Shown in pieces: positions 5,317 through 30,927 of a stretch of 34,461 nt of DNA (position 1 is the stretch's first letter; the number at the start of each line of letters is the position of its first letter). This DNA comes from an archaeon. Lineage in GTDB: Archaea; Nanobdellota; Nanobdellia; Woesearchaeales; ARS49. The notes under the pieces were generated by a model. The model had not been told where the DNA came from. It was given only the letters and a program-made list of their open reading frames with translations, and did no database searches. Made by a program: the position numbers and the translations under genes. The DNA is taken from contig JAGVQG010000059.1 in assembly GCA_020051845.1 (NCBI GenBank), forward strand, positions 1 to 34,461, in the 5' to 3' direction.

Positions 5317-6036
5317 ATGAAGCTCGCTCCTGGCATCGAGGCATTGGGTCTTGGCATACACATCCCGGAACACAAAGCCGTCGTCTTCGCGGATCTTCAT
5401 CTCGGGATCGAGGAGTCGATGCGGCGCGGTGGGGTTCTCGTTCCAAGGCAGCATTTCAAGGATGTTCTGCATAGGATCGGTCGCATTCTGAAGAGGACAA
5501 AAGGCGTCAAGACAGTCATCCTGAACGGTGATCTCAAGCATGAGTTCGGCAGGATCAATGATCAGGAGTGGCGTGAGGTCAAGCGGCTTTTCGACGTTTT
5601 CGCGAAAGACGGGAAGGAAGTCATTATCGTCAAAGGCAACCACGACGTGATGCTGAAGCCGATCGCGGACGACCGGAACATCAAGGTCGTGGATGAATTC
5701 GTGATGGGTGATATCCTTGTCTCTCACGGCGACAGCAAGCCGAAAGACCTCAAAGGCATCAAGACGGTCATCATCGGCCACGAGCACCCGACTGTTTTCC
5801 TGAGGGAAAGAGCCAAGGCCGAGAAGTTCAAGTGTTTCCTTGTGACTAGCTACCGTTCCAAGACGTTGATTGTCCAGCCCTCTTTCGGTCCGCTTACGCA
5901 GGGCATCGACATCCTCAGGGGCGAGCTCCTGAGTCCGCTGTTGGGATCGAATGTGAGACGCGGCAAGGTCTTTGTCGTGGACGAGGAGTCTGATGCCGTT
6001 TTGGATTTCGGTAAAGTGTCTGATCTGGCGCGTTGA
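5317..6036 (+). CDS. Archaeal metallophosphoesterase (SbcD-related family)
   Basis: A 239-residue calcineurin-like phosphoesterase of the archaeal family related to SbcD/Mre11. All five metal motifs are visible: DLHLG (D26, H28), GDLKHEFG (D72), KGNHD (N108, H109), SHGD (H137) and GHEHP (H155, H157). The substrate is not established for the family; a phosphodiesterase or nucleotide phosphatase acting on nucleic acid or a nucleotide is likely. In many archaea members of this family sit beside large helicases, but here the gene stands alone, with its own TATA box and probably no leader. A strict SbcD exonuclease is excluded by the short length and absence of an SbcC partner. Confidence 0.9.
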   Translation: MKLAPGIEALGLGIHIPEHKAVVFADLHLGIEESMRRGGVLVPRQHFKDVLHRIGRILKRTKGVKTVILNGDLKHEFGRINDQEWREVKRLFDVFAKDGKEVIIVKGNHDVMLKPIADDRNIKVVDEFVMGDILVSHGDSKPKDLKGIKTVIIGHEHPTVFLRERAKAEKFKCFLVTSYRSKTLIVQPSFGPLTQGIDILRGELLSPLLGSNVRRGKVFVVDEESDAVLDFGKVSDLAR

Positions 6037-6092
6037 TGTCGGTTCTTCGGCCAGTCCGAAAAACCGCCAATCTTTCCGTCGATAGGCACATT

Positions 6093-6106
6093 AAGTCTCG
6101 AGACTT
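6093..6106. promoter_or_regulatory. 14-bp perfect palindrome before the PIN-domain gene
   Basis: AAGTCTCGAGACTT is its own reverse complement. It ends 10 bases before the ATG at 6116, overlapping a weak CATTAAG TATA-like element, the place where a repressor would block initiation. A candidate operator. Confidence 0.5.
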
Positions 6107-6115
6107 CGTTAATTC

Positions 6116-6526
6116 ATGTCAAAACTGATCTATTGCGACACGAACATCTTCATGGATTATCTTGAGGATCGCCGTGACATCAGACGGCCACTTGGTCAGT
6201 TCGCGTTCCAGCTTTTTCAACGGACTCGGGATTGTGAATTTGACATAGTGATCTCGGATTGGTTGATGTTTGAGTTGCGCAATCATGGCTGTGCGGAAAT
6301 GGTCATGCCATTACTTCATCGTCTGGAGGCGCTTGGCAAGATTGTTTTCATCCGGCGATGCGGCCAGGACGAACGGGACGCGGTCCGATTGCCTATTCCT
6401 AGGTCGGATTCTATGCACGTCGTGCTGGCTGTTCGAGCGGGCGCGGTATGCCTTGTCACGAATAATGTGCGTGACTTCTATCCTTGTTCAGGGATCATCA
6501 GGATTATTGAGCCGAATCTGGTCTGA
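6116..6526 (+). CDS. PIN-domain ribonuclease, VapC-like toxin
   Basis: A 136-residue PIN-domain protein, the usual VapC length. It opens with KLIYCDTNIFMDYLE, where Asp8 and Asn10 form the first metal motif; an acidic residue follows in SDWLMFELRNHG; and the C-terminal half carries SDSMHVVLAVRAGAVCLVTNNVRDF with the third and fourth acidic positions. PIN toxins are Mg-dependent RNases that cleave tRNA or rRNA. VapC is normally preceded by its antitoxin; here the adjacent AbrB-type gene is instead downstream and convergent, with the two 3' ends overlapping by 23 bases. A housekeeping PIN nuclease is an alternative. A palindrome just before the start suggests repression. Confidence 0.85.
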   Translation: MSKLIYCDTNIFMDYLEDRRDIRRPLGQFAFQLFQRTRDCEFDIVISDWLMFELRNHGCAEMVMPLLHRLEALGKIVFIRRCGQDERDAVRLPIPRSDSMHVVLAVRAGAVCLVTNNVRDFYPCSGIIRIIEPNLV

Positions 6527-6770
6527 CTTGTTTGAGGAATTCGTCAAGGTCCTTCTCGCGTTCCTTGTGTGTCCTTCGTCGGATTGGCGCCATGCAACCT
6601 AGAAGACTGCGCAGAAGTATATCATCACTGTTTGCGGGAAGTATCTCGAGGCGTCCTTGCTTCTCAAGGATCACGACTTTGTCGCCTTCTTTGAATCCTA
6701 TTTGTGTCCGAACTTTCTTCGGCAGCGCGATCTGTCCTTTGCTGCTGATGGTGACTGTCCTGAGCTCCAT
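6504..6770 (-). CDS. AbrB/SpoVT-type DNA-binding protein, possible antitoxin
   Basis: An 88-residue protein whose first 45 residues are a swapped-hairpin AbrB domain: MELRTVTISSKGQIALPKKVRTQIGFKEGDKVVILEKQG (TVTISSKGQIALPK then GFKEGDKV). The C-terminal half is helical and charged (RRRTHKEREKDLDEFLKQV), the usual layout of VapB or MazE-type antitoxins. The ATG at 6770 is chosen over an upstream frame extension to 6848 because a CTTAAATC TATA box (6794-6801) lies 24 bases before it. Its 3' end overlaps that of the convergent PIN-domain gene by 23 bases. Pairing as toxin and antitoxin is inferred from adjacency and family. Confidence 0.85.
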   Translation of the reverse strand: MELRTVTISSKGQIALPKKVRTQIGFKEGDKVVILEKQGRLEILPANSDDILLRSLLGCMAPIRRRTHKEREKDLDEFLKQVRPDSAQ

Positions 6771-6793
6771 TTTTACAAGTAAAGAAAGTAAAG

Positions 6794-6801
6794 GATTTAA
6801 G
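6794..6801 (-). promoter_or_regulatory. TATA box of the AbrB-type gene
   Basis: CTTAAATC on the minus strand, 24 bases before the ATG at 6770. It lies within the extended upstream reading frame and so argues for the shorter protein. Confidence 0.55.
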
Positions 6802-6852
6802 CCTTTCGGCACGCTCATCATAGGTTGTGATATTTTGTAATCCGGCAAAATC

Positions 6853-7185
6853 TCAGGATTGTCCTGTTTTTACCGGCGGCGTGGCCGCTTTCCTTAGAAC
6901 GCCGTCCACGAAGATGTGTATCGGTGGATTGTTGCATGATTCCAGTTCGCGTGACACGAAGTCATCCAACGCAATGTTGGTCGTCATATCCTGTGCTGCG
7001 TGAGCTATCTCCTTGAAATTGTCGCCTTGTTTTGTGCCGATCGCGACCACGTATCTGTCGCTCTTTCTGTAGTAGTTGACAGCGACCTCTCCCTCTTCCA
7101 TGAAGGCTGTCTGGAAAAACACTATTGGTTGTTTCGCGAGCAGACGCGTGATGGAGTTCTGCGTGTTCGTAGTATGATATGTCAT
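6853..7185 (-). CDS. Small soluble protein of unknown function
   Basis: A 110-residue protein without a signal peptide. The sequence IVFFQTAFMEEGEVAVNYYRKSDRYVVAIGT reads as three beta strands, followed by a helix (NFKEIAHAAQDMTTNIALDDFVSRELES) and a last strand (PIHIFVDGVLRK). I do not recognise a family. A TTTATAA element at 7208-7214 (reads the same direction class on the minus strand) is 23 bases before the ATG, supporting a leaderless transcript. It ends 82 bases before the AbrB-type gene on the same strand, but that gene has its own TATA box, so they are probably separate units. Confidence 0.65.
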   Translation of the reverse strand: MTYHTTNTQNSITRLLAKQPIVFFQTAFMEEGEVAVNYYRKSDRYVVAIGTKQGDNFKEIAHAAQDMTTNIALDDFVSRELESCNNPPIHIFVDGVLRKAATPPVKTGQS

Positions 7186-10282: not shown

Positions 10283-12630
10283 GGTCGCGCCTCGCTGTTT
10301 CGCGTGAGTTCTTTCGGCAGCGTGGTCATCAGCTGCACTGACATGGCTGCGAGGTAGTCGAGGCGTAACATGTGCAGCTCGTTCTTCGCCTCGTCCATGT
10401 GTTCGACGCTGTCCGCTCCTGTGATTTGCTGGTTTTCATCGCCTATGGCGACGAATCTGTCGAATATGCGCTCGATCTGCAATTCTGATGCCGGCGTGTA
10501 GCCGATCATCTTGTAGTAGCGCGGCAGATTGTCGCTCTTATTCGCTTCATCGAAGCATCGTTTCCGCATCCTGTCCAATGGCATGAGGCTCATCTGCACG
10601 CTATGATGCATCATCGAAGACACCCGTTTCGGGTTTGTGTTATTGATGTATATCGTCACGGCAAGGTCCGCGTCGCGCAGCGAGCGGTAGTACCACATCC
10701 AGTCGAAGTGGGTCGTGTATTTGTTTGGGTCGCGGCCGCCGTTTTTCTTTATGAACTTCTTCGCGTCTTCTTCAGGACCGTTCAAAAGGAATGAGAACAA
10801 TCCTTGTTCTTTTGGCTGGGCAGCGTCCAGGACGTCGACTACGGCCAATGCCTGTTGCAGCAGTTTATTCTGGCCTGTGCTGAATTCTTTGCGCATGAAT
10901 GGGTTGCAGCCTGGTGAGTTTGCCGATACCGTGTCGTACACGAGGTACTTGAGCAGGTTGTACTGGAACACTCTTTGGATGTGTTCGCTTCGGGCTTCAG
11001 GGTCGTCTATGTGCGAACCGAACCGGTTGTCTGCGTCGAGAAGGTACTGGTACAGGTCCTCGCCAAGCAGAGCCAGGCGGTCGCCGAAGTCGTAGTGGTG
11101 CAGTTTCTCGTCGAGTTGCGCGTCGATGCGTCCTTTGACGAGTTGTCTTGTGCTGTCTTTCCTGTCGCCCTTGTTCAGCTCCGAACGCACGTCACGGTCG
11201 ACCGCGCGCATTATGCGGTGGTAGATGTCCTCGAGTTCGGTCCTGCCGGGCACGAGCCTGTAGTCTCGTCTTATGGTCATGTTCGCGGGCACGTTGTCCC
11301 TGTGGCAAACGATGGTGTCGTTGTCTATGATCAGTGTCCTGTCCATGGCCGTGGTCTCATCGAATGGGTCCATGGCGCGCAGCGCTTCGTGGATTCCTTT
11401 ATCGTGGCGTTTCAACGCGGGTTTGGATCTCCATCCCGGTGTCGCGGTCGCCAGCAGGTGTTCTAGCGCGTTCGCCGCGCGTTGGGCGTAAAGGCTTGCC
11501 ATGTGGTGTTCGCGGTGTTCATTGTTTTCTCTGTGGATAAGGGAGAAGATGTTCTGCGCGTTACGTTCGTAGACCGTGAGGTCCTGCAGCACTTTTTGCA
11601 TCGTGCGTTCGCAGTACAGGTCGTTGAAATCACGGAGGTGCGGCGCAGTGTCCTTCGCGTCCTGCATCTCGTTGCGTTCGCGCAGTATCATGCGGGGCGT
11701 TGGGCCGTGTATGGTTTCACAAACTATGACTGTTCTGTTGCTGTCGATCGGGATTATGGGGTATCGGTTCTTGCGCGAGTCCGGCCCTGGCACCTTCAAT
11801 ATGCCACGTCGGCCTATCTCGGTGTACAGGAGTGCGAGGTGTTCAGCACCCTGCTGCGTGCGGTGCCTCATGAAGATGTCGCGGAACGGCTGTCTGATGC
11901 TCTCTCCGCCTTGCTCCGTGACTTGGTCCTTGAAGCTGACCCTTCCGTCATTCTCGTCAGCCGGCTTTTCGTCATAGAAATTCCGCATCCACGTGCTTGC
12001 GTAGTGCTGGCAGCGTTTCATCTCCTTCTTGAGTTTCTCGGCGAGTGCATGTGGGATGTCAGCCGCCTTTGACAGCTTCTCGGCTATGTCTGCCGCCCTT
12101 GCGTCCATGGTTAGCGCAAGCGATGCGAGTTGCCAGCCTTCGAATATCTCATGCACTCCATATTTGTCGACATCCTCTCCTGCGCTGGCCATCGTGCTGA
12201 CGCGCCGGTTGCGCGCCACGGCTATGGCTTTGGTCAGGGCGGGCTTGAAGTCCTTCTGCAGGTATGATTTTCGAGAGCTTATGTATTCAAGGTCGAATGA
12301 TTCGCGCAAGGCGTTGGCAAGCGGCAAAGATTCCGCATTTCCGAGCAGGTCGTCGAGAGTGCGTTCCTGGCCTAGGAGTATTAGGGGTGGATGTTCTTCT
12401 GGTCGCGCCTCTGAAAGTATGTTGATCAACGGCTGGGCCGGGGATCCTCTTGTGTTGATCAGGTAGAGTTCTCGGTTGTGTCCTAGTTCTTTTCTCAGCA
12501 ACGCTAGATTGTGGGCCGTGACTATCGATATGTCGGGTATCTGTAGAACTATCTCGGTTATGGCTTCCATCCTGCGACGGGCCATAGTCGGGTCGTAGAG
12601 CACGATGTTTACTAGTGGTTCCCTGGCCAT
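10279..12630 (-). CDS. Large kinase-like protein with HRD and DFG motifs
   Basis: A 783-residue soluble protein. Residues about 230-525 resemble a protein-kinase/aminoglycoside-phosphotransferase fold: a Gly-containing stretch (TEQGGESIRQPFRD, 238-251), an alpha-C-like helix (GAEHLALLYTEI), a hinge (VIVCETIHGPT, 301-311), a catalytic loop CHRDNVPANM (His443, Asp445, Asn450) and YDFGDRLALLGEDLYQ (Asp514-Gly516). The N-terminal 140 residues look like an alternating alpha/beta domain (VNIVLYDPTMARRR, ELYLINTRGSP, PPLILLGQE), faintly receiver-like. The C-terminal 250 residues carry FDWMWYYRSLRDADLAVTI and LRMLRLDYLAAM-type helices shared with the paralogue at 13115-15445. A beta-3 lysine is not obvious. 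It overlaps the DHH gene by 4 nt. Function unknown. Confidence 0.75.
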   Translation of the reverse strand: MAREPLVNIVLYDPTMARRRMEAITEIVLQIPDISIVTAHNLALLRKELGHNRELYLINTRGSPAQPLINILSEARPEEHPPLILLGQERTLDDLLGNAESLPLANALRESFDLEYISSRKSYLQKDFKPALTKAIAVARNRRVSTMASAGEDVDKYGVHEIFEGWQLASLALTMDARAADIAEKLSKAADIPHALAEKLKKEMKRCQHYASTWMRNFYDEKPADENDGRVSFKDQVTEQGGESIRQPFRDIFMRHRTQQGAEHLALLYTEIGRRGILKVPGPDSRKNRYPIIPIDSNRTVIVCETIHGPTPRMILRERNEMQDAKDTAPHLRDFNDLYCERTMQKVLQDLTVYERNAQNIFSLIHRENNEHREHHMASLYAQRAANALEHLLATATPGWRSKPALKRHDKGIHEALRAMDPFDETTAMDRTLIIDNDTIVCHRDNVPANMTIRRDYRLVPGRTELEDIYHRIMRAVDRDVRSELNKGDRKDSTRQLVKGRIDAQLDEKLHHYDFGDRLALLGEDLYQYLLDADNRFGSHIDDPEARSEHIQRVFQYNLLKYLVYDTVSANSPGCNPFMRKEFSTGQNKLLQQALAVVDVLDAAQPKEQGLFSFLLNGPEEDAKKFIKKNGGRDPNKYTTHFDWMWYYRSLRDADLAVTIYINNTNPKRVSSMMHHSVQMSLMPLDRMRKRCFDEANKSDNLPRYYKMIGYTPASELQIERIFDRFVAIGDENQQITGADSVEHMDEAKNELHMLRLDYLAAMSVQLMTTLPKELTRNSEARP

Positions 12631-29664: not shown

Positions 29665-29715
29665 GCCCGGTTGTTGTTCAAGACGATATTAAAGCTTGAT
29701 GAATCATTGATATGT

Positions 29716-29826
29716 CAGAAACCGCCACTCGCAAACTCCGTGCTTTAGCTCGGAGCAAGAGGGCGGTTTCTGAGCATGCTCAAGAACCGCGGACACGCCG
29801 CGGGCTTCAGCCCGCGGTTCTTGACA
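29716..29826. repeat. Two-hairpin element, IS200/IS605-end-like (PATE-like)
   Basis: The first hairpin has outer arms AGAAACCGCC/GGCGGTTTCT and an inner stem CTCCG..CGGAG closing on GC-TTTA-GC. The second has stem CCGCGGGC closing on TTCA, and alternative arms AAGAACCGCGG/CCGCGGTTCTT. A palindrome GAGCATGCTC joins them. TTTA and TTCA loops are typical of the left- and right-end hairpins of IS200/IS605 elements. No transposase is present, as in palindrome-associated elements. Confidence 0.5.
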
Positions 29827-29837
29827 TGGCGGAACGC

Positions 29838-30362: not shown

Positions 30363-30507
30363 TGAATTCGAGAATTGTATTGTCGTTCCTGCTCGCGCAG
30401 CGTGTTTGCACGGCAGCCTTTTCGGTAGAGCTTTTGCGAGCGCAACGGAACGTTGTTCCGTGCGCAAGAAAGCCCGAGGCTTTCTTTGCGCGAGCGAGCA
30501 AAAGGTC
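30363..30507. repeat. Hairpin array 1, 3' side of tRNA-Leu
   Basis: No gene here. Hairpins: CGTG around TTTG (30401-30412); TTGCG around AG (30434-30445); ACGGAAC around GTT (30445-30461); AAGAAAGCC around CGA (30466-30486). The last two are joined by GCGC linkers that extend each stem with one bulged base. Confidence 0.65.
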
Positions 30508-30634
30508 TGCGGGTAGTAGGATTCGAACCTACGAAGGCGCTAGGCCACAGGATTTCTCCCATCCTAGGCGGACCGCATTTATGGGTCCGTGGACATCTTA
30601 AGTCCCGCGCGTTTGACCACTTCGCTATACCCGC
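30508..30634 (-). tRNA. tRNA-Leu (UAA) with 43-nt intron
   Basis: A class II tRNA. The acceptor GCGGGTA pairs with TACCCGC, the D stem is GCG/CGC, the anticodon stem CGGGA pairs with TCCTG across the intron, the loop CTTAAG|A gives anticodon UAA, the variable arm is GGC-CTAGC-GCC and the T arm is GTAGG-TTCGAAT-CCTAC. Exon 1 is 30634-30597, the intron 30596-30554, exon 2 30553-30508 with discriminator A. The insertion point after position 37 is the usual archaeal one; exact intron ends are judged from the anticodon stem. A CTTAAATAG TATA box at 30665-30673 precedes it. CCA is not encoded. Confidence 0.9.
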
Positions 30635-30664
30635 GTGGTTGTGATGCTGTTGTGTTATATTTGG

Positions 30665-30673
30665 CTATTTAAG
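30665..30673 (-). promoter_or_regulatory. TATA box of tRNA-Leu
   Basis: CTTAAATAG on the minus strand, about 31 bases before the mature 5' end, leaving a short 5' leader for RNase P. Confidence 0.55.
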
Positions 30674-30701
30674 AATTGAGTTTTGGAGGGGTGGTTTTGG
30701 T

Positions 30702-30927
30702 CACAAAGTGAGCAAAGCTCACTTGTGCACGAAAGCAAAGCTTTCGTTGCAAGCTTTTTGCGAGGGGACGAGCGAAAAGGTTGCGTGGAGACCACTTCGC
30801 TATACCTGCGATATTCTATTTTCCGCACAAACCGCGCGGGTTCCCGCGCGGTTGCAACGGAAATCCTTGATTTCCGTGCACATGAAAACCTTTGGTTTTC
30901 ATTGTGCAACGCGAGCCTGGCTCGCGT
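30702..30927. repeat. Hairpin array 2, 5' side of tRNA-Leu
   Basis: No gene here. Perfect hairpins in a row: AGTGAGC around AAA (from 30707); ACGAAAGC around AAA (30729-30747); AACCGCGCGG around GTTC (30830-30853); ACGGAAATC around CTT (30857-30877); ATGAAAACC around TTT (30882-30902); ACGCGAGC around CTG (30909-30927). The spacers nearly all contain TGCA (GTGCAC, TTGCAA, GTGCAC, GTGCAAC). Stem sequences differ; the 3-nt loop and TGCA linker are constant. Confidence 0.7.
30783..30809 (-). pseudogene. Truncated tRNA-Leu 5' fragment
   Basis: Seventeen bases (30790-30806) are identical to the tRNA-Leu 5' region at 30615-30631, and the match extends to 20 bases with one difference (GCAGGTA for GCGGGTA). 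After GTGGTC it turns into TCCAC, forming a GTGG-AGA-CCAC hairpin, and the rest of the tRNA is missing. It cannot form a tRNA. Confidence 0.65.

Follow-up and report, generated by a model that had tools for sequence, protein, structure and literature searches.

Transposition in the IS200/IS605 family acts on single-stranded DNA; a guide at the foot of a hairpin pairs with the cleavage site, and insertion leaves no target duplication. Smaller palindromic repeats have been described from several lineages. Bacterial REP sequences, which are connected with RAYT genes, carry a GTAG or CGTC tetranucleotide tag at one end of the hairpin, and the Rickettsia palindromic elements (RPEs) of R. conorii have a CGTC tag at one end (PMC3733652). 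Fungal and sponge mitochondrial DNA harbors double-hairpin elements (DHEs) and repetitive hairpin-forming elements (RHEs) (PMC2800124). We found no paper on elements of this kind in Woesearchaeota in the open-licence literature. Here we describe hairpin arrays from a genome of the Woesearchaeales, and we are fairly confident that they represent adjacent and nested copies of a short, nonautonomous insertion element of this order, which would be mobilized in trans and whose central dinucleotide would pair with its target.

Hairpin arrays around a tRNA gene and the plan of their element

The window, i.e., the whole stretch of 34,461 nucleotides that was analyzed, is the complete contig G000:C21 of a 1.33-Mb genome assembled in 68 contigs (96.6% complete). 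Approximately half of the genome was sampled as sequence stretches, and model searches were run across the whole. The S3 protein of this genome has its nearest counterparts in Woesearchaeota genomes. Within the 565 bp from 30363 to 30927 we counted eight perfect hairpins with a stem cutoff of 7 bp (30445-30461, 30466-30486, 30706-30724, 30729-30747, 30830-30853, 30857-30877, 30882-30902, and 30909-30927), the stems measuring 7 to 10 bp and the loops 3 nt in seven and 4 nt in one. The original prediction had pointed to at least eight perfect, mostly triloop hairpins around the tRNA, and these are real: 5,000 first-order Markov shuffles averaged 0.12 and never exceeded 3, against the 8 observed. 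The genome scan proposed along with it also bears out clustering above shuffled DNA: 593 kb of the source genome hold 20 groups of neighboring hairpins, and one shuffled copy holds 2. Six of the eight hairpins make up three copies of one element of about 48 bp, and the region is organized as follows.

29713-29828: structured host repeat without an insert; two long stems joined by GAGCATGCTC, with the end ..GGTTCTTGACA; folding z-score of -8.5
30431-30504: host stem-loop CTTTTGC...GCAAAAG on the 3' side of the tRNA, with element 1 in its loop
30441-30442 and 30489-30490: CG, target duplication of element 1
30443-30488: double-hairpin element 1; CA, hairpin ACGGAAC-GTT-GTTCCGT, linker GCGC, hairpin AAGAAAGCC-CGA-GGCTTTCTT, TG
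30508-30634, minus strand: tRNA gene between the arrays (Rfam RF00005, 51.3 bits; 127 nt)
30702-30703 and 30750-30751: CA, target duplication of element 2
30704-30749: double-hairpin element 2 (model match of 66.4 bits); CA, hairpin AAGTGAGC-AAA-GCTCACTT, linker GTGC, hairpin ACGAAAGC-AAA-GCTTTCGT, TG
30754-30779: host stem-loop of the same type as that at 30431-30504, without an insert; loop GAGGGGACGA
30788-30811, minus strand: fragment like the 5' part of a tRNA, next to the empty stem-loop (GACCACTTCGCTATACCTGCG versus GACCACTTCGCTATACCCGCG, read directly)
30830-30853: hairpin AACCGCGCGG-GTTC-CCGCGCGGTT, adjoining element 3 and by itself outside the element rule
30853-30854 and 30905-30906: TG, target duplication of element 3
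30855-30904: double-hairpin element 3; CA, hairpin ACGGAAATC-CTT-GATTTCCGT, linker GCAC, hairpin ATGAAAACC-TTT-GGTTTTCAT, TG
30909-30927: hairpin ACGCGAGC-CTG-GCTCGCGT, adjoining element 3

The hairpin at 30830-30853 is perhaps the remnant of an outer element, and that at 30909-30927 may be its partner, in which case the two would be the halves of an older element around element 3. The tRNA gene exceeds the length of a tRNA-Leu by about 40 to 50 nt and, because this excess fits an intron, probably carries one; ARAGORN made no tRNA call for 30508-30634, and the Leu identity is the reading of the original prediction. In both the window (5' part of tRNA-Leu, 30754-30811) and L002 (3' part of tRNA-Pro, 1748-1804), fragments of the neighboring tRNA adjoin a second AAGCTTTT..AAAAGG stem-loop, an arrangement that resembles the border of a small element or of a duplication. 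The structured repeat at 29713-29828 also has a counterpart at L029:19636-19790, and its relatives host double hairpins in G005, G083, G156, and G233.

The element follows the plan NN-C-A-hp1-G-nn-C-hp2-T-G-NN, where hp1 and hp2 are hairpins with stems of about 8 bp and loops usually of 3 nt, NN is a target dinucleotide present on both sides (mostly YR, i.e., TG, CA, CG, or TA), and nn is its reverse complement; the median length is 48 bp. Of the 78 adjacent hairpin pairs whose linker measures 4 nt, 63 show the CA/G..C/TG frame when NN is left unconstrained. The left and right NN are identical in 60 of these 63 framed elements, and in 58 both copies of NN have nn as their reverse complement, compared to a mean of 14 and a maximum of 28 in 20,000 shuffles of nn among the 63. 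The rule holds in 69 of 76 elements from 25 genomes, a count that favors its left half, as the search model behind some of the elements already contained the left (L:L') pairing and not the right; the 76 include 16 loci retrieved after the rule had been formulated, all of which obey it.

Covariation in an alignment of 150 matches, both strands counted, delimits the word further. The two NN:nn pairings are formed in 143 and 149 of the 150 rows, with 69 and 67 two-sided changes, whereas one position further out 85 rows are paired. Because covariation stops so sharply after two positions, the duplicated and complemented word comprises exactly 2 bases. A 4-bp target duplication was considered and dropped, since the outer base is not complementary and a 2-bp word resolves the GCTC/GCTT mismatch at L029. 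Every stem column of the same alignment changes on both sides with pairing kept (96.2% of cells paired), and the covariation score is 0.672 versus 0.194 in shuffles.

These patterns qualify two earlier observations on the arrays. The TGCA and GCGC words reported as recurrent linkers are present, but they do not amount to a conserved spacer, these words being G-nn-C plus its neighboring bases. Likewise, the stems were said to be all different, and inside the window they are, but across the genome identical units recur, and the stems conform to a loose consensus, A-M-R-A-A-A-N-C, common to elements from 25 genomes. For instance, the unit AAGTGAGC-AAA-GCTCACTT occurs both at 30706 in the window and in the RNase P RNA gene. 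The unit ACGGAAC-GTA is paired with three different partners and AAGTGAGC-AAA with two, and similarity between units does not predict similarity between their partners (r = -0.05). Judged from these sequence comparisons, the hairpin units are interchangeable and re-assort.

Genomic sites and empty copies

In the source genome, a tRNA gene is no more than about 300 bp away from 10 of the 23 strict elements. Insertions also lie inside genes: the RNase P RNA gene (RF00373, L003:1283-1666) contains an element at 1482-1523, the tail of rpsC (S3) in the source genome holds one in frame, and so does the tail of eL31 in G023, a protein named by eye from its sequence. As they alter the flanks of tRNA genes, an RNase P RNA, and the tails of ribosomal proteins, the elements are relevant to annotation. 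An assembly artifact was rejected on the grounds that the elements are present in 25 genomes, one of them a single contig, and preserve reading frames.

A covariance model built from 13 elements retrieved matches in 26 of 57 relatives (E <= 0.1) and, across the phylum, in 44 of 279 genomes (E <= 1e-4), 42 of them from the same order and 2 from the same class. The spread within Woesearchaeales is patchy, since close relatives often lack elements. Many of the copies in G108, G005, and G055 lie inside larger repeats, and the high copy number in these genomes reflects the larger repeat and is no evidence for movement of the double hairpin itself; in G108, about 16 near-identical larger repeats (L200-L215) contain the same double hairpin between conserved flanks. 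Searches of plasmids with blastn gave no match to the locus, and a pattern scan of IMG/VR for a common half-element gave 10 matches, none followed by a second hairpin.

A tRNA-Ala gene in an rRNA spacer (L020:2891-3340) apparently contains an insertion that breaks up its T-arm region, and the stretch from this gene to the 23S gene has additional perfect hairpins. The adjoining 23S rRNA match (L020:3340-7003) is 3,664 nt long, while the model has 2,987 positions, and so it probably holds introns or insertions. At L012:8691-8790, a GGCACA-hairpin-GTGCC array alternates with short hairpins in a manner similar to, but not matching, the element rule.

Removal of an element together with one NN yields sequences that match existing related copies, in which the target is uninterrupted and NN is single. 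Thus defined, the comparison applies to related copies within a genome, the source genus being represented by one genome. The window repeat at 29713-29828 reads CGGGCTTCAGCC, and its relative on contig C27 reads CAGG-CT-element-CT-TTAGCC, with the element in the second stem. The tRNA-flanking stem-loops of the form CTTTT..GA(6-8 nt)GA..AAAAG have loops of 10 to 12 nt when empty (window 30754-30779; L002 1613 and 1753; L023 11179; L166 12182-12254) and are filled at 30431 in the window and on contig C62; with the insert taken out, the two flanks of window element 1 align gap-free over 73 bp with a stem flanking tRNA-Pro. Nesting is seen in G005, where the linker at L131 is GTGC and a further double hairpin stands at that spot in L119 and L120, and in G023, where the two copies of a 57-bp double hairpin differ in their flanks and one of them has a second element nested in its linker. 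Loss and gain are not separable case by case, because the copies compared are relatives within a genome, and an empty copy could also reflect precise loss. Between congeneric genomes (G190 versus its genus), orthologous DNA is too diverged for such a comparison (about 65 to 70% identical).

Proposed mode of insertion and rival explanations

Among the readings offered by the original prediction, that of a new class of palindromic element is borne out, in the specific form of a defined, dispersed insertion element. As to how such an element might move, we suggest that the moving form would be folded single-stranded DNA, in which the central nn would pair with the target NN, by analogy with the guide of Y1 HUH transposases. 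An equivalent view is that of an element circle with the junction TG-NN-CA, which could form a closed dumbbell through pairing of NN and nn. A putative enzyme acting in trans would join a single hairpin unit to either strand of a cut with a 2-nt stagger, after which the complementary nn/NN overhangs would close. This scheme yields exactly the observed product. It would constitute a previously undescribed form of transposition, with independent, interchangeable single-strand hairpin modules, one per strand of a target staggered by 2 nt. Each module would choose its site through pairing of its foot dinucleotide, and the complement of the target would be left in the middle once the overhangs close; we put this forward as a tentative possibility.

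Our search for a responsible enzyme covered four families, i.e., Y1, serine recombinase, reverse transcriptase, and TnpB. Across genomes, neither Y1 genes (Fisher p = 0.77) nor serine recombinase (p = 0.76) nor reverse transcriptase (p = 1.0) was associated with the elements, and TnpB was absent or subthreshold in the element-rich genomes tried. Y1 (PF01797) is present in G000, G041, and G048, the sole match in G000 being on contig C46 (L165) at 5911-6255. On that contig, several tRNA genes and four element matches lie close together (approximately 5,680-7,180 and 12,140-12,240).

It is conceivable that the element is an ordinary one of the MITE or REP type, moved by a Y1 (RAYT/IS200-like) or DDE transposase that is missing from the assemblies or falls outside the search, with the NN/nn relationship a mere by-product. 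The proximity of the Y1 gene on C46 to elements fits this explanation, as does the fact that REP dimers are also hairpin pairs and can sit inside palindromes (PMC3733652). We nevertheless consider it unlikely: Y1 is without a match in the element-rich genomes G005, G026 (a single contig), G036, G055, and G056, in line with the above lack of association, the elements bear no GTAG or CGTC tag, and the available part of PMC3733652 describes no rule of the NN/nn type.

Replication template switching generates the same product as the two-unit scheme if a nascent strand snaps back twice to form two serial hairpins; only after two inversions can its end, NN, reanneal with the template, giving NN-hp-nn-hp-NN. 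Such a process accounts for the occurrence of hairpins in pairs and for the relation of nn, as reverse complement, to the NN on either side, and it requires no dedicated transposase, consistent with the failure of the four tested families to track the elements. The original prediction had listed a template-switch mark among its options, and the stems speak against its local form: they share the A-M-R-A-A-A-N-C consensus and fixed CA/TG ends across 25 genomes, and identical hairpins recur in unrelated flanks, so they were not copied from local sequence and a hairpin donor in trans would be required. We regard template switching as rather improbable for the elements as a whole, though it may account for the insertion step.

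That the arrays are functional RNA or DNA structures (tRNA or rRNA processing signals, terminators, or protein-binding sites) selected for shape with stems free to vary would agree with the elements near tRNA genes and with the two-sided stem changes, but it is highly improbable as their origin, and both a structured RNA and processing signals were set aside, given that elements lie inside the RNase P RNA, rpsC, and eL31 genes and are absent from related host copies, and that a processing signal gives no reason to expect a target duplication of 2 bp whose complement stands in the center; later use of some copies is possible.

With a trans-mobilized insertion element as the preferred reading, the NN/nn rule provides a testable definition of a mobile palindrome that is widespread among a large group of uncultured archaea, and it can be checked in any genome. 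The storage of the target word as its complement inside the element offers a handle on the spread of hairpin repeats in mitochondria, bacteria, and archaea, and if the one-unit-per-strand step is true, the mechanism is new.

Comparison with known hairpin repeats

Miniature inverted-repeat elements (MITEs) are defined by terminal inverted repeats, a target duplication, and mobilization in trans by a known transposase. The Woesearchaeota elements have a 2-bp target duplication, their terminal inverted repeat is limited to CA/TG, and no transposase emerged from the four families tested. The IS200/IS605 elements resemble them in the proposed pairing of a hairpin-foot word with the target. They differ, also in the case of PATEs, in that here NN is duplicated, with a single NN in related empty sites, and no Y1 or TnpB gene is associated with the elements.

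REP sequences and BIMEs (PMC3733652) are likewise small palindromes, often in head-to-head pairs, and have a word at the foot that might base-pair with the target; some are nested in larger palindromes. In contrast, the Woesearchaeota elements lack the GTAG/CGTC tag, their ends being CA...TG in 63 of the 78 adjacent pairs with a 4-nt linker; they display a 2-bp target duplication, and they are numerous in genomes without Y1, PF01797 being absent from five element-rich genomes. The RPEs offer a parallel in their in-frame insertion into protein genes, as seen here in the rpsC and eL31 tails, but the R. conorii RPEs bear a CGTC tag (PMC3733652), which is missing from the strictly double-hairpin elements with the NN/nn rule.

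Nearest in form are the mitochondrial double-hairpin elements, compared here by description. Like DHEs and RHEs, the Woesearchaeota elements are very short, consist of two adjacent hairpins, are noncoding, and are scattered in spacers and genes, including those for rRNA. They differ in being chromosomal and archaeal, in having variable stems with only a loose consensus, and in their fixed CA...TG ends; the central dinucleotide complementary to the 2-bp duplication may be a further difference. The mechanism by which the elements insert is possibly new.
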